Positions 2 to 27,400 of a DNA stretch of 64,000 bases are shown here, in pieces. Origin of the DNA: Rhynchonema sp. JSB1_4 (taxonomy: Eukaryota > Nematoda > Chromadorea > Monhysterida > Xyalidae); the NCBI GenBank assembly GCA_030248065.1, contig JASAMV010009051.1, forward strand, positions 1-64,000, written 5' to 3'. Position numbers and translations under genes: made by a program. The stretch's first letter is position 1. Each line of letters begins with the position of its first letter. A model generated the notes under the pieces. The model was not told the origin of the DNA. It did no database searches and worked only from the letters and a program-made list of their open reading frames with translations.

Positions 2-532
2 CGGTTTGCTGCATGCATCATCAAAAGCTTCCAAAAGACATTTTTGGGTTGTAGGATACACTTGACGAGCGATATTCATCAGTTGCAGACGGTCAGACGG
101 ATTTTTCATCAGTATCAAGTAATGACTATTAATTCTAGCCGTGCGAAGATTGTCAAAGAAGAGATTCTGTACGATATGGAGAATAGATAAATTCCAGTGG
201 TGACTACCTTGACAAAACAAAGTGTTCAGTTCATCTTTCTTTTTACGTCCAAAGGCTTGCATTAGATCGTCACATATGAGCAATTTACGTGTTTGTTTGT
301 CTTCTTTCAGCAACGACAAGTCTGGTATTCCTTCAACCAGTTCAACTAGTGGATTCTGTTCAAGTTCACGGTATCCGTCTTGCCATTCACCGTAACACCA
401 GTATATTTTCTCAGGCGGTGGAGTTATAAGTTCGTGTGCGTGTTTTACGAACTGTTTTGCCCAAACTGTTTTGCCACATTTTGTTCCTGCAGATAAGCAT
501 GCGGTGAAAGGAAACTTGAAACGAAGATCCAT
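2..532 (-). CDS. Polinton packaging ATPase (A32/FtsK-HerA type), 3' end cut by window edge
   Basis: The minus-strand frame opens with ATG at 532 and stays open to the left edge, giving about 177 residues with the C-terminus outside the window. A P-loop of the form A-x4-G-K-T (AGTKCGKT) lies near residues 15-22. A hydrophobic strand ending in two aspartates (LLICDDLM, near residue 77) fits Walker B, and a later VQNLF stretch fits the conserved QN-F motif of this family. In Polintons and related DNA viruses this ATPase drives genome packaging into the capsid. It lies 43 bp beyond the polymerase stop codon on the same strand, the usual pairing in a Polinton. I see no intron in the visible part. 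The frame carries no break, so the copy may be recent. Confidence 0.85.
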   Translation of the reverse strand, partial: MDLRFKFPFTACLSAGTKCGKTVWAKQFVKHAHELITPPPEKIYWCYGEWQDGYRELEQNPLVELVEGIPDLSLLKEDKQTRKLLICDDLMQAFGRKKKDELNTLFCQGSHHWNLSILHIVQNLFFDNLRTARINSHYLILMKNPSDRLQLMNIARQVYPTTQKCLLEAFDDACSKP

Positions 533-575: not shown

Positions 576-3500
576 TCACACATAACCGAACGGCAAACAA
601 ACACCGAAACCGGGAAGCACATAACATTTGTCATATACAATAGAGTAGGTTTTGTTTTGTGTTTTGGTCACAATCTGACAATTGGGGTCACGGGTAATTT
701 TTGGAGCAATAATGTCCACAGCTCCGGTGTCTTCACCGAAATTGTCCCAGTCTATGAAATTGAGCACCTTTTCCTTCAGGGTTTCGAAATTCAACAGTTC
801 GGAGGCGGCACTTGACAACGTGAACCCCCTAATTTTGATCGAGGTGCCTTCTTTGTCTCCGTTCTTGAATTTGTATGCGTATTGTTTAGGTCCTGAAATT
901 GTGAAACGACTGATTTTCCAGATGATAAGAAAGAAAGGGGCAAGAAAAAACTGACCAGCTGACACGAACTCAGTTATGGTTCCTCCGTCCAATTCGTCCG
1001 TTAGATCACCGAGATAATCACCAGTCGATGGTTCGTAGTCGTCCATGGGTCCAGACGTATAGATCACCTGCGAACACAACAATAATTGTCATATATTTCA
1101 TTGAATACTTTAAACTAACACCAACCGAGTCCGTGTCCCAGTACAGTGCACGGATGTCCAGTTTCTCCAGGTAGGTGAACAGTTTGAGTCGTGCTTGTGC
1201 AGTGACCCAGGCGGCGATCACAGTGTTGGCGTGCTGAAAATATTGTTGTTTTTTATGATTCTCAAGACGACAGCTTTTTTTTAATACCTCGAGCTCTTCC
1301 ACAAATTCGTCCACATGTTTGAACGTCACTTGTGCCATTTCACCAATCGGTTGAATGTCGAGAATTTCCAGGCCAGGATCCGTTACCGTCTTGAAGTACT
1401 CGTCAGGGTTTTGAAAGAACACCGTCTTGGTCATGGCCGATCGTTGTCCGAATTTGCCTGCAGTTAGTTTCAGTTAACTTTTAATCATAAATTTCAAAAA
1501 GTAAACCAACCCCAAAAGGAATTCAAGCACAATTTGGCCAGAGAGCGAAGGCCAGGGTTGTACTCGATCTTCTCCTTGTCCAGCCGAATCCCCTCCTGCC
1601 GTTCGAAATCATCAATGTATTTGTCCTTGTCGTCATCCGTCTGCACCCATGCAGGCCATCCACTGGCTTCCTGTTTGATCTTCAGGAAACAGTTGATGTA
1701 CGACGTGAACATGCCCGTGCTGCCATCCTTGCCATCGTACTGCTCCCACTTGTCGTAGTGGTAGACCTGTATGTTTGACAAATATAAAATAACAAGAAAT
1801 AATATATAATAATTTATTATATTATAATAGATATAATAATAACAAACGTTAAACATTGATGATTCATTAATGTTTACACTGCACCTACCTCGGCAATATC
1901 CAGCACCGTGTAGCCCATTTCGAGAGCTTTGTACACCTCACAAGTGGCCCAGCAGCCCCAAAAGGCACGTTCGTCTCGTGAGTGTTCACAGGCGTTCTTT
2001 GAATGAATACCGGCACACGAGGCACACAGATGGAACAGCAACTTTTTGCCCACACGTTGTGGCAGAACGGCGTGGATCAGGTTTTTCGGTGGCAGAACAC
2101 GACATTTGATTAGACCTAAAAATAGCGTGACCAGACTATTGGAATTATTATTCAAGATTAAACCAACCATTGTACGGTCGATTATCCTTTGTCACGGGCT
2201 CGAAATTCTCCGTTTTGACCGAGGGGTGTCCGACGGGAAACGTGCCGTATTTGCAGACCTGCAGTTATTTATTTTCAGCAATGATAAATATTCCAGTGGT
2301 AATCAACAGTAACCAACCCACGGATACAACGAGCAGACGTCCACGTATCGTGCAGTTTCTTCTCCCGTTGCCTTCCAGTACATGTGACCACAGTTCGTCC
2401 TGCCTGAAAGCTTTCACGAATTAGATTACAGTTTTTGGTACACGTTTTCCATACTCACCTCCGTAGAATGCTTCCCTCGGGTCCATGGGCTCATGGATTT
2501 GCAGACCCTTGACGAACGAATCCATTTCAGGGTTGTTACGACACTGCTTGTTGAATTCACATTCCCAGATCGTGGTGACGTGGTAACCCTGCGCCTCCAA
2601 ATCCTGCTGACGTTGCTTGGTGTGTCGTCTTGTGGTGTGGGCCGACAGTTTGGTGAAGGGAAGTATGGTATTGTCCAGCGGGAAACAACTGGGACAACCG
2701 TGAAAGACCTGAAAGTACGTTATACTATTCACAGCATTTAGTCAGATTATCATTCAAACTTACACATCCGTTGAATTCGTAGATCTGCGTCGGATCGTTC
2801 CTCAGTTGTCCGTCAACCTTGTACTGACCAATACGCACTTCTCCACCGTTCTTGGCATGTTGTATGTCGAGGTTTTGACTGTGCGACAACCATTTGACCC
2901 ATTTGATGCCGGCAATGCTGAAAATTACATAATTTGAGTCAATTTGGAATTATGGAGAATATGGTTTACCTTTGTTTGTCATTCCTTCTGTATCCACCGT
3001 GCGGAACCACTGCAATCGTGTTCGGTTTCAGGAAACGTTTCTTGAAGATGGACATGCACAGACTGGCGATTGTGACTGACGTAAGGAACGGATCGATACC
3101 GTGTTCGGACAAGATTAGATGACGAAACTTCATACAAGCTTTCATCAAAATCTCCACGTCCATTTCACAGTACCGAGACAGTTGATCTTGGAAATTGAAC
3201 AGCTTGCACGATTCGGCTTCTTCCTTGTACCTGCGATATTGTTTATATTTCTGTGAGTTCTCACTGTTCTAGCTAAAACCAACCATTTCAGAAACTCCTC
3301 CTTCTCTTTTGGTTTCTTGTTGTCAGGGTCGTAGTACTTGATGTTGGGCAGCGGACCAACGTAATCCCAGTTGTCCATTGTGTTGAATCGATGCGGAAAC
3401 GTCCCCTTGCAACCCTGGATACCCATGGCTTTGGGCAGACCTGACAGCGGCATGGGGAGGAAGTTGAGACTGTCGATTATCGTGATGTCGGCGGTTGGTA

Positions 3501-5681
3501 CGTAGATCTGAAAGGTAGTTAGTTAAACTTCGGTTTGACATACTCAGAGATAAATGGAGAACCTTGAAATGTTCCAGTCCTCTCTTGATGACTTCTGGTT
3601 GCATGCACTGATTGTAGAGCCACTGCATGACGAACTGCGAGTCGAAACCCCGGGCGTTGTGTGCAATCATTGTGCTGCCTTTATTGACCGGTCTGAACAC
3701 CCACTCACAAAACTGATTCAAGGCATCAGTACCCATGAACCGTTCTTTGGCGACTTTGCAGTTGGTGCACGGACCGGCCTTGTCATGGCACAACTCACAC
3801 ACTTTGCAGACCCAGATGCAGTTAGGAATGTGTTGCATCACCTGACCGTTGTCGTCCACACGAATGACCTGTAAAAAGGATTTTATTAATTTTCGAATCA
3901 AGACAAAAAAAAAACTTTAAAAAAAATACCGTGTCTTGTGTCGTTTCCAGATCGAAGAAAATGAACGACGGTGGAGTGTGACGGCTGTCGGTGTCACGAA
4001 GCGGTTGCATGTAGCATTGGTGTGCCAGAGCATCGACGAATTTCTTGCAGATCCGACATTTGACCTTGCCACACTGGTGCTCTCCCCGATGGCGATCGAT
4101 GTTTTCTCCACATTTGCAGCGTTTGACATTGTCACAGGTGGTCACTGCTTTGCGTTTACCGTGTATTCCACGTCCGTTGCGGATCACTGGTACATACTTG
4201 ACGGCCTGAATCATATGTACTTGTCATCACCTTGAAAGACTAAAATAAACGAAAAGAAACCACCTTATGATTGGCGAAACAGTGCTGACTGACGAATTTT
4301 CGGTTGCAGTCGTTGCAGTAGACGTCCTGCACAGGGTCACATGGACGATGCTCGAAACAGCCGGAACACTTTTGACCACATTTGGTGTGCGTGCGTTTGT
4401 TGATGTACGTTGTCTTGCACTTGTCACACCAGTAGGACGATTCGAAAAAGGCCGGGATAGACGTGACGACATTGTAGTGACGATTATGCAGTAGGAGATT
4501 GATTTCTTTGGCAGAATCCCTCTCATCATACACCACGTTGAACATGTGATCGGACGAAAACACCCTCACACGGTAATTGCCGAGAACTGAGTGCAGTCGT
4601 TCGAGTTCGGGGATGCCACATAGATCCTGATGATGTTCCAAACCGGCGTCCTGCAAAAGAGTATCAGTAGCGGAATTGAACCAGCCATCATCGACAGTCG
4701 AATCATTTGACTAATCCACTGCGCTACGGACACTCTTAACAAATAGTTACGAAAGTGGTATAAGTACCTTCATTAGTGTTACGGCCAGTTCTTTCTGCTT
4801 GGTGCACCTACTGGCGTCTCCTTTACGAACCACTTCCCACAAACGTTTGGTATCGTTGTTATCGTCCTTATGAATACGACACTTTGCGGTCACCAGAGCT
4901 CGAGCCAGGCATAAATTGTCGTTGTTGTTGATGCGAATCAATGAATTGCCGTGACCTAAACTTATTTGAGGATGCTTTTGTTCGAATAATGGGTATAGAG
5001 AACATAACCAACCATTCTTTTCATCCAACCATGCGTCCAAACTTCCACGGAACTTGCGTTGACGGCCACCACCAACTGGAGTGCGGACGGTCGTGAACTG
5101 CCAGATCATTCGATCGTCCAAGTTGAATCCAGCCCGACTTTGCACAACCTGCGTTTATTTCACCAATGTATTGTTGTTTTAATGTAAAATTTAGTGTTTT
5201 ATAACCTGTTCTATCACTCTGATCACTGCCTCAGCGTCAAGTTCGCCACGACGACGGAATGGCACGAGAACGGGTTTGTCCAATGCGGGATGTTTAATTC
5301 GAACACCTGCAACTAAAGTTTTGTGAGACCACAACTTTATCACATTTGTTTGGCAGTCCTAACCGACACGATCCTCGGGTTCTGCGTCTTCAAATGCCCG
5401 GTCAATGAGCCGATTGAATGCTTGTTGTGCAAAATCGTGAACGTCCGGGACTTGATCAAGATTGCGGAAATTGACAGTGAAAGCACGACCCGTGGTGTTG
5501 AGTCGAGCCACATGTTGTTCGAATGGTTGCCCCATGTCGATGTGCGAATCGATGTCTGCAAATAAGTTGCAGTCAACTGGTGGACAAATGTTACAGTCGT
5601 CTAAGCGGAACAAACCATTATCTGGCTCGGCACCACCAATTTGTTGGTCCTGAAGAGGACCGTTGGGTTCGGGCAGAAAAT
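576..5681 (-). CDS. Polinton protein-primed family B DNA polymerase, 19 exons visible, 5' exon missing
   Basis: Exons on the minus strand, all phase-consistent: 5681-5364, 5306-5206, 5148-5013, 4955-4768, 4650-4264, 4205-3930, 3868-3563, 3507-3284, 3230-2970, 2917-2764, 2708-2459, 2403-2318, 2258-2168, 2115-1889, 1766-1511, 1457-1288, 1233-1126, 1067-956, 892-576. They total about 1,320 codons with no internal stop. An N-terminal zinc-finger-like region has repeated C-x2-C pairs. Exonuclease motifs follow: FFDLETT (Exo I, about 3950), HNARGFDSQ (Exo II, about 3650) and YCEMDVE (Exo III, about 3165). Polymerase motifs are VDVCSLYP (about 2330), KLCLNSFWG (about 1520) and WDTDSV, which spans the intron at 1125. 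It replicates the transposon by protein priming. The first exon used here has a good acceptor (CATTCCAG) but no ATG, so a short leader exon lies upstream. Introns are roughly 35-110 nt, and six begin GTTGG. Confidence 0.88.
4661..4733 (-). pseudogene. tRNA-like sequence inside a polymerase intron
   Basis: The intron between the exons ending at 4768 and starting at 4650 holds a minus-strand stretch with a good pol III A box (TAGCGCAGTGGATTAG) and B box (GGTTCAATTCC), spaced like a tRNA and about 73 nt in total. The acceptor arms GTGTCCG and ACTGATA do not pair and the D and anticodon arms are poor, so it is a decayed or tRNA-derived sequence rather than a working tRNA. It makes this intron one of the longest in the gene. 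Confidence 0.45.
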
Positions 5682-5759
5682 CTGGAATGAGTTAGAGTTA
5701 GTTCAAATCTTTTACGTACTTTCAAATTCAAATAATTTTCCGATATTTTATTCACATAT

Positions 5760-6470
5760 GGTACAATAATAGCGTAATATCGCGCATTTACTGCTATTTG
5801 ATGGCTGACGCGCAGCGATCAACTCAACCTCGCTTGCGTGCCGCGTGCGTCCGTATTTAACCCGACGGAAAAGTCACATACCCTACGCTCAAATAATGAG
5901 TCACTCACACGAAAAAATATCACAGCGTGCGTACAGAATCGGCCGCAGATGTCACGCATCTGCGTACGAAACTGCGGTGACTGGCCTTGGCGGCTGACGC
6001 GCAGCGACCAAGGAACCAGTTTCACAAAAAAATATATATTCCGCACAAACACACATTTTAAAGAAAGAACCCCGATCGGACACCCCTTTTTGGACACCCT
6101 GAGTACGTATCCATACTACCATATCTGACACCCTATGTACAACTCTATACTACTATGTCCCGATACTATGTCAGTCCTGACACCCTGTCAGTCCTGACTC
6201 GCTGTTTTGTCTTGACAACCTGTCAGTCCTGATACCCCGTGTTCCAAGTTTGCTGTCAGTCCTGACTCCCTGTTAGTCCTGATGCCCTGTCCGTCCGGAG
6301 TACGCGTGCGTCCGTATTTACTAACGGTAAAGTCACACACCCTATGCATGAACACATTCACAAAAAAGCAGGCGTACGGAAAAAGTCCGTGTTGACTAGG
6401 CTTGGTGGCTCACGCGTAGCGACCAAGTAGCCAGTTTCACATTCACACAGACGGCTCACCCTATCGCGAT
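5760..6470. repeat. Polymerase upstream region with duplicated GACGCGCAGCGA blocks
   Basis: No coding frame is convincing here. The block TGGCTGACGCGCAGCGA occurs near 5801-5818 and again near 5990-6008, with a variant GGCTCACGCGTAGCGA near 6408-6423. A second shared block (GTGCGTCCGTATTTA, then a CGGAAAAGTCACA-type stretch) occurs at about 5848 and 6306. These look like two or three diverged copies of a module of roughly 200-450 bp upstream of the polymerase gene. It could be promoter duplication or part of a terminal repeat; this is inference. Confidence 0.5.
6160..6300. promoter_or_regulatory. Cluster of TGTCAGTCCTGAC palindromes upstream of the polymerase
   Basis: At least five copies or close variants of GTCAGTCCTGAC occur within about 130 bp, separated by short spacers. 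The core GTCAG-nn-CTGAC is an inverted repeat, which suggests a dimeric DNA-binding protein. Related clusters lie upstream of the other small genes of this element. Confidence 0.6.
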
Positions 6471-6716
6471 TATGAGTGCGTGCCGCGCTGTTTGTGTACG
6501 TGTATGTTAACTGTACCCTCCCTGTGCTCACTCCATTTAGTTTTCCCAGCACTTCCCATATTTTCGTTTTGCGTCATCCCAGAGCAGCATAAAGCTCTGG
6601 ATGTACAGTTGGTGCACCCATCCCACGTTAAATGTTTTAACTTACACATCAGTTTCCCAACCCCCCAGTTTATTCCTGTTGTTGCTCATTTGAAATCATA
6701 ACGATAAGATCAACAG

Positions 6717-6998
6717 TCATTTTATTTTATTCGCCACAGAAAAAATGAGAATGAAGGAAGCAAACACGCCTTCTGCAAACATTTCCTCCAGCGTTTCCTG
6801 GTCGATGATGTCGTGGTCGTGCGTAAAGATGAACTCCATGATGTCGTCAGGCAGTGGGAGAGCGTTGGCGATTGGGTCGAGGTCGTAGGCCCGGTTGCGG
6901 ATGGCGTTGTAGAGCTCTCGGTCGATTCTCCACAGTTGTTGACGGATCAGTCCACACACTTCTTCCCACGAACACGTTTCGACGTCAGACGGTTGCAT
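6717..6998 (-). CDS. Small acidic Polinton-region protein, unrecognised
   Basis: A 93-codon frame starts at MQPSDVETCSWEEV (ATG at 6998); an in-frame ATG at 7040 would add a hydrophobic N-terminal stretch. The product is rich in Asp and Glu in the middle and ends in a hydrophobic segment (FASFILIFSVAN). An AATAAA lies in the last codons and stop region. I recognise no domain. Its upstream region, shared with the divergent spliced gene at 7262-7775, carries the GTCAG/CTGAC palindromes. It is probably a real gene of the element, but that rests on context and an intact frame only. Confidence 0.5.
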   Translation of the reverse strand: MQPSDVETCSWEEVCGLIRQQLWRIDRELYNAIRNRAYDLDPIANALPLPDDIMEFIFTHDHDIIDQETLEEMFAEGVFASFILIFSVANKIK

Positions 6999-7104
6999 GA
7001 TGGTAAATAGAATGGCGACAGAAATGGCAAATTGGCTCAAATGAAAGGTTTAAATATAAATCAATAAAATCCAGAACATTCTAGTGCAATTGGGAACCTT
7101 CCAG

Positions 7105-7200
7105 TATATTTCTGACACTTGTCAGTGCTGACATCTCTTCCAATGTCAGTCCTGACACCTCTTTCATTGTCAGTCCTGACAATGTTAGTCCTGACATTAG
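7105..7200. promoter_or_regulatory. Palindrome cluster in a divergent intergenic region
   Basis: Four to five copies of TGTCAGnnCTGACA or half-diverged forms (CTTGTCAGTGCTGACA, AATGTCAGTCCTGACA, ATTGTCAGTCCTGACA, ATGTTAGTCCTGACA) lie between the minus-strand gene ending upstream at 6998 and the plus-strand gene at 7262. This position fits a bidirectional promoter. Confidence 0.6.
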
Positions 7201-7261
7201 GTAGCGGAAATCGAGTTAGAAATATCAAATGAAATATTAAGTATATGTTCTTTAATTGCAG

Positions 7262-7775
7262 TCAACCGTGCGTATCGTCCTTACAAGATGAAGCGGATTT
7301 AGCGATCGATCAACACCTGGCTCATTTGCGCTCGAGGGAGGGCATCGAGGTATAATCAGATACGTGTTTACTGTTGCCCGAGCATACAACTTGTTTTTAT
7401 GCTCTTTGTAGGTCGGCGTGCAAACGTCAGAGCCAGCGGTTGAAATCTCACCTGATAGTGAACATGCGATCGAGAAATTCGAAGGGGGTGTGAAATGTCT
7501 GACGTGGGTTAATACTATCTTTTACATTATGCAACTGTGAAATTTTATTATGCATTAATTATTTCCGACTCTTATCATTTTCACTATTCAGTTCCGAACT
7601 ATTGGATCGAGTGTTGGTGTTGTGCGATGCAATTCGTGAAAGTGATGCGCTGTCGGCGCGTCTCGGAAACCGTCTGACCAATGTGGAGAGCTGTGCAGCA
7701 TGTTTGGTGGCTGCGAGGGCTGTGGATCAAAAACGAAATACGAACACTCAGAAAAAAATTAGAGAGAGCAAGTGA
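7262..7775 (+). CDS. Spliced small gene of the Polinton region, 5' exon not found
   Basis: Three phase-consistent exons are 7262-7349, 7412-7503 and 7592-7775, with acceptors TTGCAG, TTGTAG and ATTCAG and donors GTATAA and GTGGGT. They encode about 121 residues ending in a basic, Gln/Lys-rich tail (NTQKKIRESK). The frame has no ATG, and the first exon begins in phase 2, so an upstream exon within about 200 bp is missing from the model. Charged residues dominate and the last exon looks helical (SELLDRVLVLCDAIRESD). I do not recognise a family. It runs opposite to the ATPase and polymerase genes. Confidence 0.55.
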
Positions 7776-8089
7776 AACGATCTAACAGATTGCTTTCGGA
7801 ATTTATGTCACAGTATTGTCATCACCGTCCGGTATTGCGCCGTTGTACATTGTTGTGGCTCTGCCTGCGTACATTTAATTTCTGATTGCATGTTGTCTGT
7901 GTCTGTCTGTCCGTGATTTCGTCGTAGAGCAAGTGAAATTTGTTGGTGTTCATTTCGCGTGTCATGACATTGTTGTTGTTTGTTTGTTGTTATTTGTTGG
8001 CTTTGTTAAATAAACATGAATGTAAACATGGTTCAGATGAGGTGGCCCTGAAGAGGGCCGTTGGGTTTGAGTAAGGCTACCCGAAGGCG
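7776..8089. other. 3' flank of the spliced gene, no gene seen
   Basis: AT/GT-rich sequence. An AATAAA at about 8009-8014 is a possible poly(A) signal for the plus-strand gene. A run near 8046 resembles sequence at the start of the polymerase first exon (CCTGAAGAGGgCCGTTGGGTT), a short duplication within the element. Confidence 0.4.
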
Positions 8090-8502
8090 CTAGTACGGCA
8101 TATCAAACGACGGTTCACTCTCAACACATTTGGGATAGAACAGATTCATGTGTTGCCCGACTTTGGGTCCTTTCCTGACCAAATAATCACTTAACGAAAC
8201 ATAGGAAGAGAACCACAGGCCAAGCACACGAGAACAAACGTCAGACTCGAATGCAATCCTGCCGAACTTCTCCCATTCATCCTCAATTTCCGTGTTTTCA
8301 CCCAACGTTTGTGCATGTTGCAGAATATAAAACGATGGCGCACACAAACTACTACCTTGCTTGCTACTCATTCCACTGATTGTTGCACTCAACTTTTTAG
8401 CTATTAACTCAATGAATACCGTATCCATCCAGTCCATCTCCTTTTTCATCTTTTGCTGCATGAATGCATACACTGCTTCTTCTTCGTCAGCGGGGATGAA
8501 CA
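8090..8502 (-). CDS. Polinton-region protein of 137 aa, unrecognised
   Basis: The frame is open from ATG 8502 (MFIPADEEEAVYAF) to the stop at 8090. An upstream in-frame start at 8530 exists, but the 8502 ATG has the better context (TTAAAAATG). The product begins acidic and then shows a methionine-rich, probably helical stretch (about residues 10-35). I recognise no motif. The palindrome array at 8585-8905 lies directly upstream, as with the other genes here, which supports its being a gene of the same element. Confidence 0.55.
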
Positions 8503-8584
8503 TTTTTAAGCGGTAAAGAGCAATGAACACAGTGCTTTAATACTGAAACAGTTTCTTCCAGAAATCTACGCCCTACATCGCGCT

Positions 8585-8905
8585 TGTGCAGAATGTCAGG
8601 TCTGACACGACATAGTACACACACGACCTCGTACAGATTGTCAGACCTGACAATGTCAGTACTGACAACTGTCAGTGACACGACTCAGTACATAAAACAA
8701 CCAGTCAGACCTGACACGACTTAACAACCAGTCAGACCTGACACGACTTAGGCTTACGCGAAAAACACCACACTATAGTCAGACCTGACATGACTTAACA
8801 ACCAGTCAGACCTCACATGACTTAGGCTTGCGCGAAAAAACACCACACTATAGTCAGACCTGACATGACTTAGGCTTACGCGAAAAACACCACACTAGAG
8901 TCCTG
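8585..8905. promoter_or_regulatory. Dense array of GTCAGACCTGAC palindromes within a short tandem repeat
   Basis: About nine copies of GTCAG-nn-CTGAC (mostly GTCAGACCTGAC, once the perfect palindrome TGTCAGTACTGACA) fall in 320 bp. From about 8745 they sit inside a tandem unit with the shared text ACTTAGGCTTACGCGAAAAACA and ACCACACTATAG, repeated about three times. The array lies directly upstream of the 8502 start. Confidence 0.65.
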
Positions 8906-9508
8906 ACAACTGCTCCCCAGCTCGCCCCTATGCTTATACACTGCCTATGCTTATACATTGCTCCCCAGGTACCCTCCTAAATGTGCTCCCCAGGGTACAG
9001 CCCTTTACTACTGAACACAATGCATTATCTGTTGAACAGGACAGCCCTGTCCTCTTATCACTAAGCATATTGGGCGCATAGGGGGCACCTGACCCAGTTC
9101 ACAAGTTGCCGAGAATACCATAGCCTTACCACGACTATCCAGAAAGCAAGTATCCATATCCAGTATGCAACCAGTTGTGTAATGTACACACGTCAGAACT
9201 GAAAAGATGGAAAACAACTCCCAATTTGCCTTTGAAGGAACACTTTTGTGCACCTCGGCTGATTGGGCAAATCAAGCCTGCATGAGTAAGAAAATCACAT
9301 CCAAATGGCGTAACTTCCCCATCATCAAACGCTGTCGAGGGGGTCTTGAAGGCAGCTGTCAGGAAATGTTTCGTGTAAATGCACAACAAATTTTTGTACG
9401 AGGCACCTTTGCCTTCGTGGACAAACGTTGAGCTGTGAAAATAGACAATGAAATTACGGTGGATATCGACTGGCAGAAACTTGGAACCAGATTATAAAAC
9501 GTGCCTTG
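8906..9508. other. No gene recognised
   Basis: Contains repeated GCTCCCCAG words near 8910-8995 and otherwise unremarkable sequence. The right boundary of the Polinton may lie near here, but I could not see a terminal repeat. Confidence 0.3.
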
Positions 9509-14000: not shown

Positions 14001-17000
14001 AAGCAATAGAGCTGAAAATGTTTCGATGGCACGATTCTCTTTTGCTTAGGCAAAGATGAAAATGCGTGTTTGATAGAATTAGTTTCCAATAAATCGCTTC
14101 TGAAGAGGATAAACATTATTTAAATCGGCGCGGGTCAAATAATGGATAAACAATCAAATTGTATCGAGTTCGGACGGTCCCACCCAGCGTTGGAATAAAT
14201 GTATCCAGCCACAGAAGAAAATTTTGTAACTCGCATTGTAAGAACGAGAAAAATTGTAGCTGGATGCACACAGGTGGGATCGTCCGAACCCGATACAATT
14301 TGATTGTTTATCCATTATTTGACCCGGGCCCGATTTTTTAAATAATGTTTATCCTCTCTAGAAACAATTTATTGGAAACTATTTCTATCAAATACGCGTT
14401 TTCATGGTTGCCTAAGCGAAAGAAAATCGTGCAATCGAAACATTTTCAGCTCCATTGTGTCCAGCTACAAAAAAATCTACTGGATACAAAATTTTTGCGG
14501 AAAATGGATTTACAATTGCATATAACTTTTTTGGCTGCAATTTGTAAGTTATTTTTATTGTATGAAATAGAAAGTGCTCCTTTTGCATGTATTAACTGGA
14601 ACAAGTTAGCGAATTCTTCCAATGCTAGTAGATTTGATAATAAAAAGGTGTGAATTGAAATGAAGAAATCCGACAGAAATGCCATTTATTATATTACCCT
14701 GGAAACAGCGGCTCAAGTCCTTTGACACCCATTTGTTGAAGTCACATTTTGCGTCGAAAGTGGACACATCAGTTTTGGTTGGCCCCGTTTGGCATGTGAC
14801 TTTCGCTATGCTGAGGTGCTTGTGCTCATTCGTATCTGGTACGATCTTGTGGCCGAAAGGGAGATACCCCACGTAGCAGCTAGCTGGAAGACAGGTTACG
14901 AACAATAGGTGCAATATAGAACAGCCATTTTCCCTGGGCAAACCCAGTCAAACACGGCAATTGAGCAAAACACATTTGAGTAAGACCACTTTGAACAAGT
15001 GAAAAAGAGCAGAGTCCAAAAGAGCAGAACCTAAAAACGAATAGGCTTAAGCCTAAGTCTAAGCCCAAACACAAAACTAATCTTAAGTGTATGTATAAGC
15101 CTAAGCCTAAGCCTGATACCAAAATCAGCCTAAGCCTAGGCCATTGGAACAAAATAAGTGCTCTGCTCTTTTGGCCCTGCTCTTTTTTCACTTGCTCAAA
15201 GTGGTCTTGCTCAAAATGTGCTTTGCTCAATTGCCCTGCCACCGTCAAATACTTACTGCTTAGGCATTCCGGAATCAATGCGGGCCAATTGCCATCGTCA
15301 CATTTGATTTTCGTGGTTTTCGTACGGTCAGGATATAGGAATCTTGAATACTTACAGTAGAGCTCTGCTTCAGAACCATGGGAATACAAGTCTGCTCCTT
15401 CTGGCCCGGCTGACACCTCCCCCGCATACGTCAAATCTGAACTTGTCGGACGCATGCAGTCTGGAAGCAAAGACAAAGTATTTTAGGACTACCATAGAAA
15501 ACACGTTCTGTACAGAGCAGTACAAATACTTACGAAAGTAGCACTGGTTAAATTGTTCGAATTTGTACGTTCCCGCTGCACATTTGGCGTCAAACGATGT
15601 TGTGTCACTTGCACTGGGACCTGTTTGACAGGTAAGACGGACATCAGCCCCCGGCGAATGCAAGCCCTGCGCCGCATCTGGCTCGTTTTCTTGCAGCTGC
15701 ACACCGGGCGGCAGATATGACTTGTGACAGTGAACTGAATTTTTTTGCAATTTTTTTGTATTAGCGGCAAGTGCACCACTTTTGACTCTTGTCAGTATAA
15801 AAAATGATTTGCCAGACAGGTAGCGTATAGTTCTAGGGAAGAGGGGTTCCCCTCGGGTACGCCTTCTTCAACTCGGTTGTGCGCTTGCCTTCTGCCCCCG
15901 TTCCGGGTACTTCTTCTCCCATAAGTTTGTGTGCAAAATAGGCAAATTTGGACTCAACAGGGATATGTTTATCCATAAATTAGGTGTTTTTAGGTTAATG
16001 TTGTTAAACAAATGCCAAAATATGATTTTTATGGACAATTATTTTCCAAAAAAGGACTAAGTCAATCCCCCCCCCAAAAATATTGTTTCCTGAATTCGAG
16101 TCTTTCCCCTTCCTCCTTCGGGATCGGGGGTGTGCCTCCCTCCTCCGAAAAAAGTGTGGGGTTAACATTCTCATATGTACACTGGTAGCTACCATTTAAG
16201 CTGAAGTCGCACAGGTAATATTCCTGAAGGGTGTTGCAATAGCGGGTTTCCAAGCCACGGGGGTGGGCGTAAAAGACTGCGCAGAAACTGTTGTTTGCAA
16301 CGTATTGCCCGCGAACATCGGGATCCCACATTAGCACGTCCACTGGCCGGCCGTTGGACATCCATTTGAACAAGGCAAGGCGACTAGTGGTTTTGGAATG
16401 TTCGTTATAACTTTCTTGGTCCGATAAGGGCACTTGAGCTCCAACGTGCATGTTTCGTTCATACAGTGGTCGGTCCTGTATAGCATTCGTGAAAGTGAAA
16501 CGATCAACATACAACCATACTGTGCTAGTATGTGGAAACCAAAAATCGCATAATATACCCTGGAGCGGTGGAGCTAATATAAAGCGGTCGAAAAGATCCA
16601 ATTCATCGTAATATACCCTGTGTCCACATAATTTATGTATTTCGCACGAACCTTGTAAAAAAGAGCATTTGCAAACTGAAATCTGCTATCAATGGTTGCG
16701 AGCAGGCCCGTTCGAAAATGCTGTGGTGGTGGCGTCTTCGTGCACAGCTCGTTGGCTTCATTCCAGGTGACTTTAGCCGAACTGATGAAATAGCATTTTC
16801 CCTGCAATTATGAGATGAATCTGCGAGCCTGTTGTTTTCAAATTTGGAATGCATGCCTTTGGATAAGTTTGCCTAGCGCAACGAAAAAAACAAAGAAAAT
16901 GAAGAAAATGACTTAGAACGTCCCCAGCTATTGCACCTTGTAGAACATGTATCGGTCGTCGTTTGGGCCCGTTCCTTTTTCCATCGATTCGCATGCGACC

Positions 17001-18011: not shown

Positions 18012-19772
18012 TCATTTCTTTTGTTGTTTCTGTCTCAATTTGGTCTCCTTTTCGGCCTGTTCCTCCTCCGCGCGTGCCTGTCGTTGCAGATCGGCCGGCA
18101 GCGGGTGTTCGCGTGCGTAGCGATCCGCGAATTCTAAATGTCGACTTTTGAAACATTATGATCGAACTTTGTGATCGGATCGGACTATCCAAATGGATTA
18201 TGTTCCGATTCAATCCGATCCGATCACCTGGTTTGATATCGGCCAAGATTACGAACTGTTTGTATATCAATCTTAATATGTTTTTATCACTTTTTTGCGC
18301 AAAAGCCAATGCATAAAATATGATTTATCAACAGATTTGGCCTTTCGGCAGGACAAGCCCAATGTCTGGTTCTAGACTACCGCACAATTTCGGTTGAGTT
18401 GGCGGCCAATTATATTCCGCGACTTTTCAGGCCCGGAAGTTCAGGCCCGACCTTTTCAGGCCCAGTTTTTCAGGCCCGACCGATTCAGGCCCAGCATATT
18501 TGATCCATTTGTAGGCTTTTTATCCAGCTATTATTAATTTCTTCCTTCGTAAATTTAATTTCTAATTTTCTCAGTCTGGAAAATGGTTGTAAAAGCCGAT
18601 TCTCTAGGAACTGCTTTGTATGGGGCTGGGTTTTTAGTTTATTTAGTATTTTTCAAAAGTTTTTTAATTTTTGCGCAATTTTTTAAACTTGCCCTTGCTC
18701 GCTTTTTTGCCTTCACTCATTTCTGTTTTTTTCTTTTCAATGCTGCCTTCATCAAGCTCTCATTTTTTATGATGTCTTCTACTAATAGATAATAGCAATC
18801 TGTCACAACTTTCCATTTTTATAATTAGGCCCCATTTATAATTTATAATTCTGAATCGGCCGGGCCTGAATGGCTGGGTCTGAACATGTGCCCCGGGACT
18901 GAGCCGTCGCACAATGGGCCAGTTAGGTTATAATGCGACTTCGAGTCCGCAAATCGAGTGATAAATCGAATTTCTCCGCTCGGTTTTTATTGATTAATAT
19001 CGATACAGTATATCATGCTTATGTAAGACGTCCGTTGCTCAGAGAAAATATAAACAAAAGGGCACCAACGGAATTCTCCACTGCTGAATTGTTCGGTGGC
19101 CTTTCTGTATTGTCGATGATGCGGCGTTTCGGGTTCGTCCCCGGTGGGCACGCCGTCGGGCAGATGCACGTGCTGGGCGGCGGATGGGGCACGCGATTGA
19201 GAAATCGATTGGGAAGCACCTGATCAGGAACAGGAAGCCATTTTTTTGAAAGGTCGTGTGTTTGTATGCTTGGATGCTGCGTTTTCATTCACACAAACAC
19301 AAGCCTTGATTTTCTTGAAAAGCACTTATTATTGTCCGTGGCATGGTAACAAAAGCTATGCAAGAAACCCGCACTTTTCCAATGTACCGATGCTTTTAAA
19401 CAGATAAGGGCACTCCTTCGATACTCGGGACCCAGTTCTTAAGAGAGGAACATTTGAGGATTTCTTTTCAGGCTTGGGCTTAGGCTTAGGCCCCAGCCAC
19501 CCCTAATAATACATCGCGTTGCGTGTAGGCCTAAGCCTAAGCCTAACAACAGTGGCTGGGCCTGAAAAGAAAGCCTCTAACCCTGAAATCAGTAACATAA
19601 TATCGTTCCTTAACCAATGTATACAATAAGACAATCCTGAAAAAATTCAACTTATAATAATCTCCATTGCCGTATAACCTGATGTGCTGCTGCTGCCCGG
19701 CGTTGTGACTGGTGGTTGAACACCGGCCCAGGCATAGTAGTGAGGCGGGATTTGTTTCTGGTTCCTAGACAT
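18012..19772 (-). CDS. Three-exon gene for a 121-aa protein, unrecognised
   Basis: Exon 1 is 19772-19679 (start MSRNQKQIPPHYYAWAG), exon 2 is 19219-19070 and exon 3 is 18133-18012. Junction phases agree (all phase 1), acceptors are GATCAG and ATTTAG, and the second donor is GTTGGTGCC, a form seen in other genes here. The full product is 121 residues. The N-terminal half is rich in Pro, Ser, Gln and His, probably disordered. The C-terminal third is a strongly charged predicted helix (ADLQRQARAEEEQAEKETK) ending QKQQKK. There is no signal peptide or membrane segment. I do not recognise the family. Both introns (459 and 936 bp) carry repeat elements. Confidence 0.65.
18420..18890. repeat. CAGGCCCG-word element in an intron
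   Basis: Five TTCAGGCCC(G/A) words lie within 18425-18500 and the inverse GGGCCTGAA/GGGTCTGAA occurs at 18860-18885, framing an AT-rich centre. Similar words occur near 20434 and 58545. It looks like a nonautonomous inverted-repeat element in the second intron of the 121-aa gene. Confidence 0.5.
19440..19590. repeat. Inverted repeat built on TTAGGC
   Basis: The left arm contains GGCTTGGGCTTAGGCTTAGG and the right arm GGCCTAAGCCTAAGCCTAA; the outer parts (TTTCTTTTCAGGC / GCCTGAAAAGAAA and CCCAGCCAC / GTGGCTGGG) also mirror each other. It lies in the first intron of the 121-aa gene. Confidence 0.65.
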
Positions 19773-20433
19773 GATGATGTTGCTTGAGTTTGTATAGATA
19801 TAAAAAATGCAGGAAAATTGGGATGAAGGTTGTCGGTCAGAAAAAAGATGGAATGAAACGATGAAATCTCGAGGCTTTGTTACACAAGGGTAGAAATTGT
19901 GTGACTTTTCAAATGTTGCATTTTACATATACCCTGACAATATTTTTGGGAGAAACTTTTCAAACGCGTTGCCTGATCCGTAAAGCGCACGCGACTGGCG
20001 CAGCCAGCTGAGTTTCGTACCATACCATTTCGCAAATCACTACGTTAGACCTGTGTCTTGAGTGGCTGGCAGTCACGTGACCGCTGCACCTAAACGTACG
20101 CATAATGCGCTTTGCAGATCAGGCAACGCGTTGAAAAGTTTCTCCCATGTACATGTCGCCTTGTGGCCTCCCTGTACTTGTGGCAAACGTAATATACCTA
20201 CATATATATGTATGTTTATGTTTTTGACCGAGTTACCACGCAAATGTACAGGGTGTTGGCCACATGCTCTGACATGGCTCTCATGTTTTCTGAGGTCCTT
20301 TTTTTCCTCTGCTCTACACTTTCGTTTTCTTTATTTGCCACTGGTCTTGCTGCAGGTTTTTTACTTACGAAAGTGTCCTTAGTCGTCAAGAAATTTTTCT
20401 AAACTTCTATTAGGAAACAAATTGAAATTTCTT
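19773..20433. other. No gene recognised
   Basis: Upstream flank of the 121-aa gene. Short frames exist but none has coding features. Confidence 0.3.
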
Positions 20434-24440: not shown

Positions 24441-27400
24441 TTAAGCTTTCCAGAAAACAATGGCCACCAATACACTTAAGAATGCGTAAAAAAACAACAG
24501 AATAGCCACCAATACACCAAGGAAGGCATCCCAAACAACAGCGTAGGACTATATAAACATAAGTAAAAGAACAATGCACACATTATTCTGTCGTTTCAAA
24601 AAGTGACTTACAACAATTATAGTATTCCTGTAAAAAATATAGATTAAAAACAGCTACATTAATTTATAATGTGTCAAAACATGTGTGGTCACACTAATGC
24701 ACATTATGTAAAAACATGTATGTACATTGTCACAGAACATTGTGAATACAGAGAAGATTCGATACAACGAACTTCGATATCACAAATCCCGCGCTATAAC
24801 GAAAGGTTTCTTTGCTCCAAATGTCGTAATGTATTTTTCGTTCTATGTTGACATAAAAATAAAGAGCGGCTTATTTAAAAATTTTGTGACCTTCAAGCAG
24901 CAGTTATTGACCATAAATTGCTGATATAAATGCAAACACAAATTAGAGACATTGCAACGCAAAATAACACAGTGCCAGACTTGGAACAGAATCAGACAAC
25001 AAGACAATACGAATAGTGTCAACGAAAAGGATCACATCGGAACATAAAACAGACATCCAGAATAGCTGCATCATGAACACTTTGCCAAGTGGTGTAGTGC
25101 AGATTGACACTGCAACCTAAAAAATTGGAAGATTTTTTTGTCCGGTCCATGATAGGCATTCTGGGTCTGGGTTTATTCAAACCAGGAATGCCTTTTTGAC
25201 CAAGAAAGCTTTATATTGTCGTTGGTATTCCGGATCTAAATTTCGAAAGAAGATTTAGAAGTGGCTGAAGTGAATGGGAAGAGTGGGTGGCAATTAAAGC
25301 ACTTCGAGGTGTGCGTGGCAACGTGGTATCGCCTTCATCTGGGAGAATTCCATGTAGTTTTTGAACAAGAAGCAGCAGCTTTTTGACCAAGAGTGCTCGC
25401 TACAAAGCTTTATATTGACTTTGGTAAATATTTTGGATCTAATTGTCTAGCAACGATTTAGCAGTGGCTGAGGTGAATGGGAAGGGTAGGTGACAATTAA
25501 GACACTTCGAGGGCATCGCGCAGCGATGCCCGAGGAGTGTGCGTGGCAATGTGGTTTTACCCTTGAACTGGGAGAAACTAGGAAAAAAGAGCGTAAACAG
25601 GCTTACGGAATTATGCAACATCCGTAACTAAACCTGGCCTAGACTTCTGACGGTACAATGGGGAGAAACAAGTCTAACCGTATACTTATGACGGTACAAT
25701 GGGGAGAAACAAGGATTATCGAGCAACAGTTATGCGGTCCGACCACGTGATGTAGAAAAAATGGCGTTGCATAGTTCCGGCGCCCGCTCGGGGGAGGCGT
25801 AAACGCACAGTGCCGTGTTACATTGGGGGTTAGTCAAAACTTCGTACAACAGCGCAGAACACTTGTGTGCACTTGCACTTACATTTGTGCTTGTCTGTTA
25901 CCTGATGGAAAACCATGATATGAAAATGAAAAGAGGAAAGTGTCAACAAGGGTTGCCTTGTGAAACCGTGTGTTCAACCCAACGCTAAGCCGTGTGTATT
26001 TAATAGCCAGGGATTTTGTGCTTTTTTTGTCTGGTCTGACAATCCGCATCTTATTCATACGAACTAATTAGCTTGTCCAAAAAGCCAACTGATGATTATT
26101 AGCGAGTTGAACAAATCGATTCCGTGAAGTTGCATAAGAATCGGGATAATAAGACCTAATATACATAGTAAATGTGATAATGGGTGCTATTGTGGGATTA
26201 TGTGGCGGGTGAAATCATGCAGCACTTGTTTCTCACACTGACTAATGATAAGAAGTAAAATGAAAGGTGTGTAATTGCGCTAGAAGATTGTGTTCTGTTA
26301 CTGAAAAAATGGTACTGAAAGAAGCGGAAATGGACAAAAAACCGATGGGGTGCCGAACACCGAGCGGGCGCCGGAACTATGCAACGCCATTTTTTCTACA
26401 TCACGTGGTCGGACCGCATAACTGTTGCTCGATAATCCTTGTTTCTCCCCATTGTACCGTCATAAGTATACGGTTAGACTTGTTTCTCCCCATTGTACCG
26501 TCAGAAGTCTAGGCTAGGTTTAGTTACGGATGTTGCATAATTCCGTAAGCCTGTTTAGGCTCTTTTTTCCTAGTGTTACCATCAGCAGGCAACCACGCTG
26601 GCTTTTCTCGCACCCAGCTTTCGACGGAGCTTACAGTATAGTCCGTCCACCAGCTCATGGCACTTTGTGTTGCTGCTGGCTGGTTAGTTCCCTTCCTCCA
26701 CGTTCTAATGAAAGAGAAATTGAGTGTGACCGATTTTGCAAAAAATTTAATAAAATAACAAAATGTGTCGAAAAAGATTGAATTCGATCAAATTTAAAAT
26801 TAAATTGAATTAAAACCGATAAAACACGTCGATTTCATAAAAACCACAATCTTGGAGCAAAAGCAATTTTTTTTCGGAATCTCAATTTCTCTTTCATTAG
26901 AACGTGGAGGAACTGAACAAGTTGGCCAGCAGCATCACAAAGTGACATGAGCTGATGGACGGACTATACACCCAACGCAAGATCTCACCGTTTTGAAAAA
27001 CATCAGCCGTGTAGTCTTCAAGAGCAGTTGCAAGTGCCGTATGTTTTTTCCAGCACTTTCTGAAGTGAGGGGGAGTTCGATTTTTTCACGTGCATTTCAG
27101 GAAAGCATGAAGGTGTTTGAAACTAAGCAGATTTAGATTAATCGAATCTCATGAAGGGGAGTAGAATGACGAAAAATACATGTGATCGACTAAATCTGAA
27201 CCCACAAGCCTGCTGGTATACGAGCATTACCAGGAAATGAGGTCCAAGTTTAGTTTGTACGGTTCGAACGGGATCCCGCTCCCAAATCAATTACCGAATG
27301 GTTTTTGAGTCCCGGTCCGGATAGTGAGCTCTGTATGTTTAGGACCGGCTGCCTCTGGGGTCGAATGTATTTATGATTCCAGGCCTGATGTTGAGCGTGT

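Follow-up and report, generated by a model that had tools for sequence, protein, structure and literature searches.

Family-specific palindromic dyads at Polinton promoters in the nematode Rhynchonema sp. JSB1_4

Contig JASAMV010009051.1 of the nematode Rhynchonema sp. JSB1_4 (assembly GCA_030248065.1), called C5550 here, begins within a Polinton that carries clustered copies of a 14-nucleotide palindromic dyad, TGTCAGnnCTGACA. The window, meaning the whole stretch of DNA that was analyzed, is the first 64 kb of this contig. The element is identified as a Polinton by exons of a family B DNA polymerase (PolB) in the window, the integrase of a sister copy, terminal inverted repeats of 442 bp, and a target-site duplication of 6 bp. 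The evidence supports the view that the sites of this dyad, which defines family A, are element-specific and noncoding and lie mostly at gene starts near TATA-like boxes. Sister Polinton families B, C, and D carry different dyads at the homologous promoter: TTACGnnCGTAA, TGTCGTnnACGACA, and GTCmGATCkGAC, respectively. The palindromes probably serve as sites for a dimeric, sequence-specific regulator of the promoters of one Polinton family, those in the terminal repeats included, a reading that we favor with some reserve.

Family A sites in the window and across the genome

With up to two mismatches allowed, the window contains 23 matches to TGTCAGnnCTGACA, whereas 100 dinucleotide shuffles gave a mean of 2.69 and a maximum of 10. 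At one mismatch or fewer, 15 sites (7 of them exact) fall into three clusters, and two strays lie elsewhere in the window, at 26028 and 29923. The second mismatch adds a site at 8804, within the third cluster, and strays at 3433, 9191, 42836, 50685, and 63445. A first-pass annotation of this DNA had counted nearly twenty copies in three clusters; the clusters are present, but the count is 15 or 16 at the thresholds used here. None of the clusters, to which no strand is assigned, overlaps any exon recognized in this analysis, in agreement with the same annotation.

The placement of clusters 1 and 2 depends on the open reading frame at 6998. A single open frame on contig C1313 matches this frame in its first part and the PolB exon at 5362..5691 in its second, so the 6998 frame (6720..6998, minus strand) is probably PolB exon 1. 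Cluster 1 (6169..6267; four sites with at most one mismatch, one exact) is therefore probably within PolB intron 1, and not, as had been proposed, upstream of the polymerase. Cluster 2 (7120..7196; four sites, three exact) was correctly placed between divergent genes, PolB exon 1 on the minus strand and a small gene on the plus strand with an exon starting near 7262; given the probable identity of the 6998 frame, this is the divergent PolB promoter. Cluster 3 (8594..8865) comprises seven sites with at most one mismatch, three of them exact, and the one with two. It does lie upstream of the gene that starts at 8503 (8502 in the first-pass annotation), but it sits inside the terminal inverted repeat (8571..9012), which doubles as the upstream region of that gene. 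Its sites are not all independent, because part of the cluster is a tandem duplication with units of 27, 48, and 74 bp.

Half-sites change more slowly than the DNA around and between them. Cells that differ between homologous copies were counted in two alignments, one covering the intron-1 array in 3 copies and the other a part of the terminal-repeat array in 6, with sites defined in C5550 only. Changes affect 5 of 212 cells at inner half-site positions and 2 of 44 at the outermost positions, compared with 82 of 739 in spacers and 6 of 42 at the two central bases. Fisher tests gave p = 2e-5 for half-site versus spacer and p = 0.004 for half-site versus centre, values that are optimistic because the copies are related rather than independent. 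Conserved half-sites around a free centre are the pattern of a dimer-bound regulatory site, and the earlier remark that the central bases vary while the half-sites stay is confirmed. A dyad-by-locus matrix, whose sites were chosen by matching, agrees with this conservation.

Genome-wide scans covered 203.9 Mb in 5747 contigs and used the same pattern reversed as control. Exact TGTCAGnnCTGACA occurs 89 times, against 14 for the reversed pattern. The places of 50 of these were listed, and those of the remaining 39 are partly known from other scans, which put 7 in the window and 5 on C4174. Polinton genes are present on the contigs of 45 of the 50 listed places (C2581, 23; C1502, 6; C2731, 6; C3605, 5; C316, 4; C3049, 1), and the other five places are isolated, on the unclassified contigs C90, C185, C375, C422, and C3326. 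Two sites within 30 bp of each other were found 37 times in the forward and 47 times in the reverse scan, whereas the reversed pattern gave no such pair in either; further pairs lie on C3605 and C4342. Other copies of the family with this dyad are on C3605, C2731, C4174, C316, C1502, C2581, and C4342. On C2581 it occupies the terminal repeat, the region upstream of gene2 (11 exact sites), and the divergent promoter of gene3 and gene4. Both comparisons suggested by the first-pass annotation, with other Polinton copies of the genome and with genomic background, come out in its favor: the sites recur in other copies, and the five isolated places among the 50 listed stand against 14 for the whole-genome reversed control.

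Dyads of the sister families

The other dyads were obtained in two ways. A motif-free search for repeated dyads returned TGTCGTnnACGACA on C1453 and hints on C1280 and C3049, and direct reading of homologous promoters gave TTACGnnCGTAA on C1280, C1181, and C4847 and GTCmGATCkGAC on C3049, with a spacing of 14 bp in the main C3049 arrays. At one mismatch or fewer, compared with the means of 50 shuffles, the B dyad has 18 sites on C1280 (0.2 expected), 13 on C1181 (0.3), and 3 on C4847 (0.2). The C dyad has 11 on C1453 (0), and the D dyad 13 and 8 on two pieces of C3049 (0.1 and 0). Exact sites separate the families almost completely: counts of A/B/C/D are 48/0/0/1 in A loci, 0/6/0/0 in B loci, 0/0/7/0 in the C locus, and 1/0/0/11 in D loci, with 0/0/0/0 in the capsid, integrase, and ATPase block of the D element and 0/1/0/0 in the host part of the window. 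A code of Polintons in general is rejected as a reading of the 14-mer, which is the dyad of a single family and gives way to different dyads in its sisters.

Across the genome, pairs of the B motif TACGnnCGTA occur at 33 places (19 in the reversed control), all of them on C591, C1181, C1280, C3494, C3574, and C4210. All of these contigs except C591, which is unclassified, match gene3 or PolB exon 1. The C dyad TGTCGTnnACGACA occurs 50 times, compared with 35 for the control; 17 of its sites are isolated, and the other 33 cluster on C1453, C2600, C3594, C5071, and C5431. The first four of these contigs match gene3 or PolB, and C5431 has just a Histone3 match. Pairs of the D dyad number 11 and 12 (0 and 0 in the control) and are confined to C3049, where they lie at four separate places near gene starts; a fifth place, 5679-5704, has two sites with one mismatch.

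The switch of dyad is clear for these four families and not so for 10 of the 19 PolB-exon-1 loci; the other nine have A, B, C, or D arrays. Among the ten without a clear array, one (C976) has two exact CTGTGAnnTCACAG sites in the same promoter, called dyad E, which is not enriched genome-wide (9 sites versus 26 in the control). Four loci (C1313, C4537, and two on C3582) have, by eye, G+C-rich repeats of the CACCGTG or CGCCGCG type that are not clean dyads. Inspection by eye found neither dyads nor G+C-rich repeats at the remaining five, on C2559, C1277, C3287, C5576, and C2618. A shuffle test for repeated exact dyads in the 19 loci flagged the A loci, C1280, C4847 (for another sequence), and C976. 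It left C1181, C1453, and C3049 unflagged because their sites are imperfect or the array falls outside the 3-kb piece.

Dyad type does not follow polymerase identity. The family-marker PolB exon of the window (3560..3868, minus strand; alone below the Pfam cut-off) is 98% identical to that of C2731 (A), 87% to C3049 (D), 84% to both C1280 (B) and C4174 (A), and 70% to C1453 (C). For PolB exon 1, next to the promoter, the values are 97% for C4174 (A), 88% for C1280 (B), 74% for C1453 (C), and 69% for C3049 (D). This lack of correspondence suggests that promoter cassettes may have been exchanged between elements.

Possible readers of the sites

The mechanism that we propose is that a dimeric DNA-binding protein reads the dyads and controls transcription at the promoters of the family and in its terminal repeats. 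Related families have the same layout, in which short dyads are arrayed between divergent genes with TATA-like boxes, in some copies together with heat-shock-type elements, but the dyad itself differs. Under such a mechanism the specificity of the binder must have changed between families. Because the sites are restricted to the elements and come as several different dyads, the binder would most likely be encoded by the element itself, and promoter-plus-regulator cassettes may have passed between elements with nearly the same polymerase. A speculative candidate for the binder is the product of a small gene divergent from PolB, which has a basic C-terminal tail and whose last exon lies in the open frame at 7503..7775 (plus strand).

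Several observations weigh against this mechanism. On C2581 a cluster of TGTCAGnnCTGACA (20127-20310) sits between gene4 and gene5, whose ends converge there, a poor fit to a pure promoter role. On C1502, gene4 and the 8503-type gene diverge from a promoter with a heat-shock-type match and no A dyad at two mismatches or fewer. The element-wide promoter code of the first-pass annotation accordingly survives in part: the dyad recurs, mostly at gene starts of the element, but clusters also lie probably in an intron, in the terminal repeat, and between convergent gene ends. The A and D dyads share letters: with one mismatch allowed, D has 53 matches in A loci, and one of the D sites fits A as well. 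For B and C, whose genome-wide controls are high, the argument is one of clustering. Tandem repeats make up some arrays, as in the units of cluster 3 and the 14-bp spacing of D, and ten PolB-exon-1 loci have no clear array. Among the structural models of gene3 and gene4 no binder was found: the gene3 model is good (predicted local distance difference test score, pLDDT, 85.8) and has no clear structural match, and the gene4 model is useless (pLDDT 33.9).

Host transcription factors might read the dyads instead, each Polinton family having captured a different one, a possibility we consider unlikely. The elements do contain signals that are presumably read by the host. Heat-shock-type elements, defined as four alternating GAA/TTC units with at most two mismatches and counted in overlapping windows against 10 shuffles, adjoin several arrays. 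They number 6 on C4174 (0.6 in shuffles), 6 on C2731 (0.4), 14 on C1502 (1.9), 4 on C1181 (0.4), 5 on C4847 (0.5), and 3 each on C1280 and C1453 (0.5 for both). On C2581, locus L041 has 7 (0.7), L030 has 3 (0.3), and L011 has 0 (0.3). Some of the matches fall outside promoters. Counts did not exceed shuffles in the window's own element (1 versus 1.2), its host part (7 versus 7.5), or three C3049 pieces, and were not clearly above them in the C976, C1313, C4537, C3287, C5576, and C2618 pieces. Against host factors as readers of the dyads themselves stand the scarcity of A sites outside Polinton contigs (five of the 50 listed, versus 14 in the whole-genome reversed control) and the confinement of D pairs to one contig. 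In addition, at least four dyads in the same layout would need four host factors.

Heat-shock-type arrays stand beside or instead of dyads at L044:2086-2135, L042:4201-4254, L041:169-203, and L056:1835-1887. Sites of the host proteins MEIS and TGIF were considered and rejected, since the base after the dyad varies.

It is less likely still that the arrays serve mainly replication or genome maintenance, with the terminal repeats providing an origin or initiator site and the internal arrays being copies of terminal-repeat sequence. Long runs of sites in the family A terminal repeats and in the terminal part of the C1280 element would fit such a role, and terminal-repeat sequence has been copied inside the rearranged element of C1502 (at 4210 and 6502). 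The internal clusters of family A, however, share dyads but mostly not spacers with the terminal repeat, and the D arrays lie at separate gene starts. That the arrays have no reader and arose as minisatellites or by-products of recombination is very improbable: despite the tandem units in cluster 3 and the 14-bp periodicity of D, the rate of change in half-sites is about one fifth of that in spacers and centre, and the same dyads stand in separate promoters with unrelated spacers.

RNA hairpins were rejected because the inner G and C, which would lie in the loop, vary no more than the other positions, in a count that leans towards conservation since its sites were chosen at two mismatches or fewer. 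Viral contigs gave hits to the paired-dyad pattern in 60 stretches, of which 54 had a single match, and these were taken as chance, without a control. One viral contig, IMGVR_UViG_3300047482_000019 (L121), has four such matches at 4373-4676 and is probably unrelated.

The element, its histone-type 3' ends, and known systems

The Polinton extends beyond the left end of C5550 and terminates at 9012. Its right terminal inverted repeat (8571..9012, 442 bp, no strand) ends in TTTACTACT. It aligns with the left end on C2581, inverted, at 99.8% identity over 443 bp, of which one base is outside the repeat. The target-site duplication GAACAC (9013..9018, no strand) recurs as the same 6 bp before the left terminal repeat on C2581. 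Repeats and duplication were thus compared from ends on two contigs, and C2581 and the window may be two ends of one insertion. Interstitial TTAGGC-type runs, TTAGGC being the nematode telomere repeat, lie in the host flank at 15039-15142 and 19461-19551, with many GGCCCGGCCC repeats beyond.

The gene start at 2..532 (minus strand), cut by the contig end, has no Pfam match over the cut-off and is presumably that of a packaging-ATPase-like gene. The gene3 family protein (8093..8503, minus strand; phmmer E 2.9e-10) is transcribed away from the terminal repeat. An imperfect dyad, TTGGnGGCTnACGCGnAGCGACCAA, recurs with variants in what is presumed to be PolB intron 1, at 5798-5822, 5987-6011, and 6402-6426 and in L042, L043, L045, and L056; it is common to families A, B, and D, unlike the promoter dyads.

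The integrase part of the window's own copy falls outside the window. On the sister copy C3049 a retroviral-type integrase (rve) occupies L072:2560-3663 (PF00665, E 1.7e-13); its two named relatives are from Meloidogyne (35% identity) and Caenorhabditis (30%), which together with the TTAGGC-type runs suggest a nematode host, and environmental proteins reach 60% identity. IMG/VR contained no relatives of the integrase or of the capsid candidate. PolB (PF03175) scores over the cut-off on sister contigs including C3049 and C1453. C3049 also has what we take to be an ATPase-like gene and capsid candidates. Candidate jelly-roll capsid and packaging ATPase genes are present in the elements, with no Pfam match over the cut-off. 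A candidate adenovirus-type protease on C1502 (Peptidase_C5, E 4.4e-4, 20.4 bits) is just under the cut-off of 21.3. That contig carries a rearranged element in which a duplicated capsid-type gene is joined directly to a terminal-repeat end (L044:1-945, 4475-5311; 4210-4356, 6502-6648). A short cysteine-rich gene, whose product is probably secreted or of membrane type, lies between gene2 and gene3 (L030:116-600, minus strand; L043:5056-5580).

Several accessory genes of these Polintons end, judging by sequence and score, in the host's histone-type 3' stem-loop. The stem-loop has near-constant flanks, AACCCAAC-GGCCCTCTTCAGGGCC-ACC, and is present in families A through E and in others, where a few copies vary in stem, loop, or flank. 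A 6-bp stem, a 4-base loop, ACC after the stem, and a position just 3' of the gene were all found. In the window it follows the 8503 gene (8019..8064, minus strand) and scores 27.8 bits with Rfam Histone3 (E 4.7e-5; gathering score 34). Element loci gave 15 matches of 25.9 to 35.2 bits, one of them over the gathering score. Host genes read by eye as H2A and H2B are followed by a stem-loop that agrees with it in stem, loop, and flanks and reaches 36 and 36.3 bits. Of the 70 matches scored across the genome, 27 exceed the gathering score, including matches on C2581 and C4342. Such 3' ends would point to expression tied to DNA replication.

Besides the window, the stem-loop and flanks common to accessory genes and host histone-type genes were seen at L030:676-722 (minus strand) and in L133 and L134. 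In several families the coding frame of PolB itself contains a histone-type stem-loop sequence. In the window it is at 5646-5661 (minus strand; 20.5 bits, E 0.025), in the exon at 5362..5691 (minus strand), and elsewhere at L042:2802-2817, L045:689-704, L056:547-562, L068:1720, L069:1702, and L070:1711. Rfam microRNA- and snoRNA-type matches in the same loci were rejected as far below their gathering scores.

We know of no account of how animal Polintons switch their genes. The literature searched, with subscription papers outside its scope, described neither a dyad code nor a histone-type 3' end in Polintons. Dyads common within a family and replaced between families of near-identical polymerase offer a direct handle on this switching, since the binder should co-vary with the dyad.

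Papillomavirus E2 sites stand in several copies in the viral control region and, to our knowledge, are not known to switch sequence between close relatives. They are palindromic and bound by a viral dimer (PMC11784461). The nematode sites are likewise palindromic and present in several copies in control regions, with dimer binding known for E2 and predicted here; unlike the E2 system, no E2-like protein was identified among the element proteins examined. The accessory genes with histone-type 3' ends resemble the replication-dependent histone genes of the same genome in stem-loop, flanks, and, in several cases, a downstream AACCATG, the difference being that the histone genes belong to the host and the accessory genes to the element.

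Endogenous mavirus-like elements (EMALEs) in Cafeteria are Polinton relatives with several types per host and type-specific motifs upstream of genes (PMC8547959). The situation here is similar, with several element types in one host and motifs of their own at genes. The EMALE type 4 motif, TCTA within A+T-rich sequence, is presumed to be recognized by factors of a giant virus (PMC8547959); it is not a dyad, in contrast to the dyad arrays here, which also occupy terminal repeats. Cluster A mycobacteriophages have operators and stoperators consisting of many short 13-bp sites, mostly outside promoters, with a known repressor (PMC6550527); the site sequence varies between related elements and goes with immunity groups (PMC6550527), and the sites are asymmetric (PMC9283540). 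The Polintons resemble these phages in having many short sites per element and a site sequence that changes between relatives, and differ in that their putative sites are palindromic. Replacement of the dyad suggests that such virus-like elements may keep each other's regulators apart. By analogy with temperate phages one might tentatively picture Polinton immunity groups, an idea to which we give a low probability: each dyad would have a family-specific repressor or activator, so that residents silence or help incomers of the same family only, and several accessory genes would be tied to S phase through their histone-type 3' ends.

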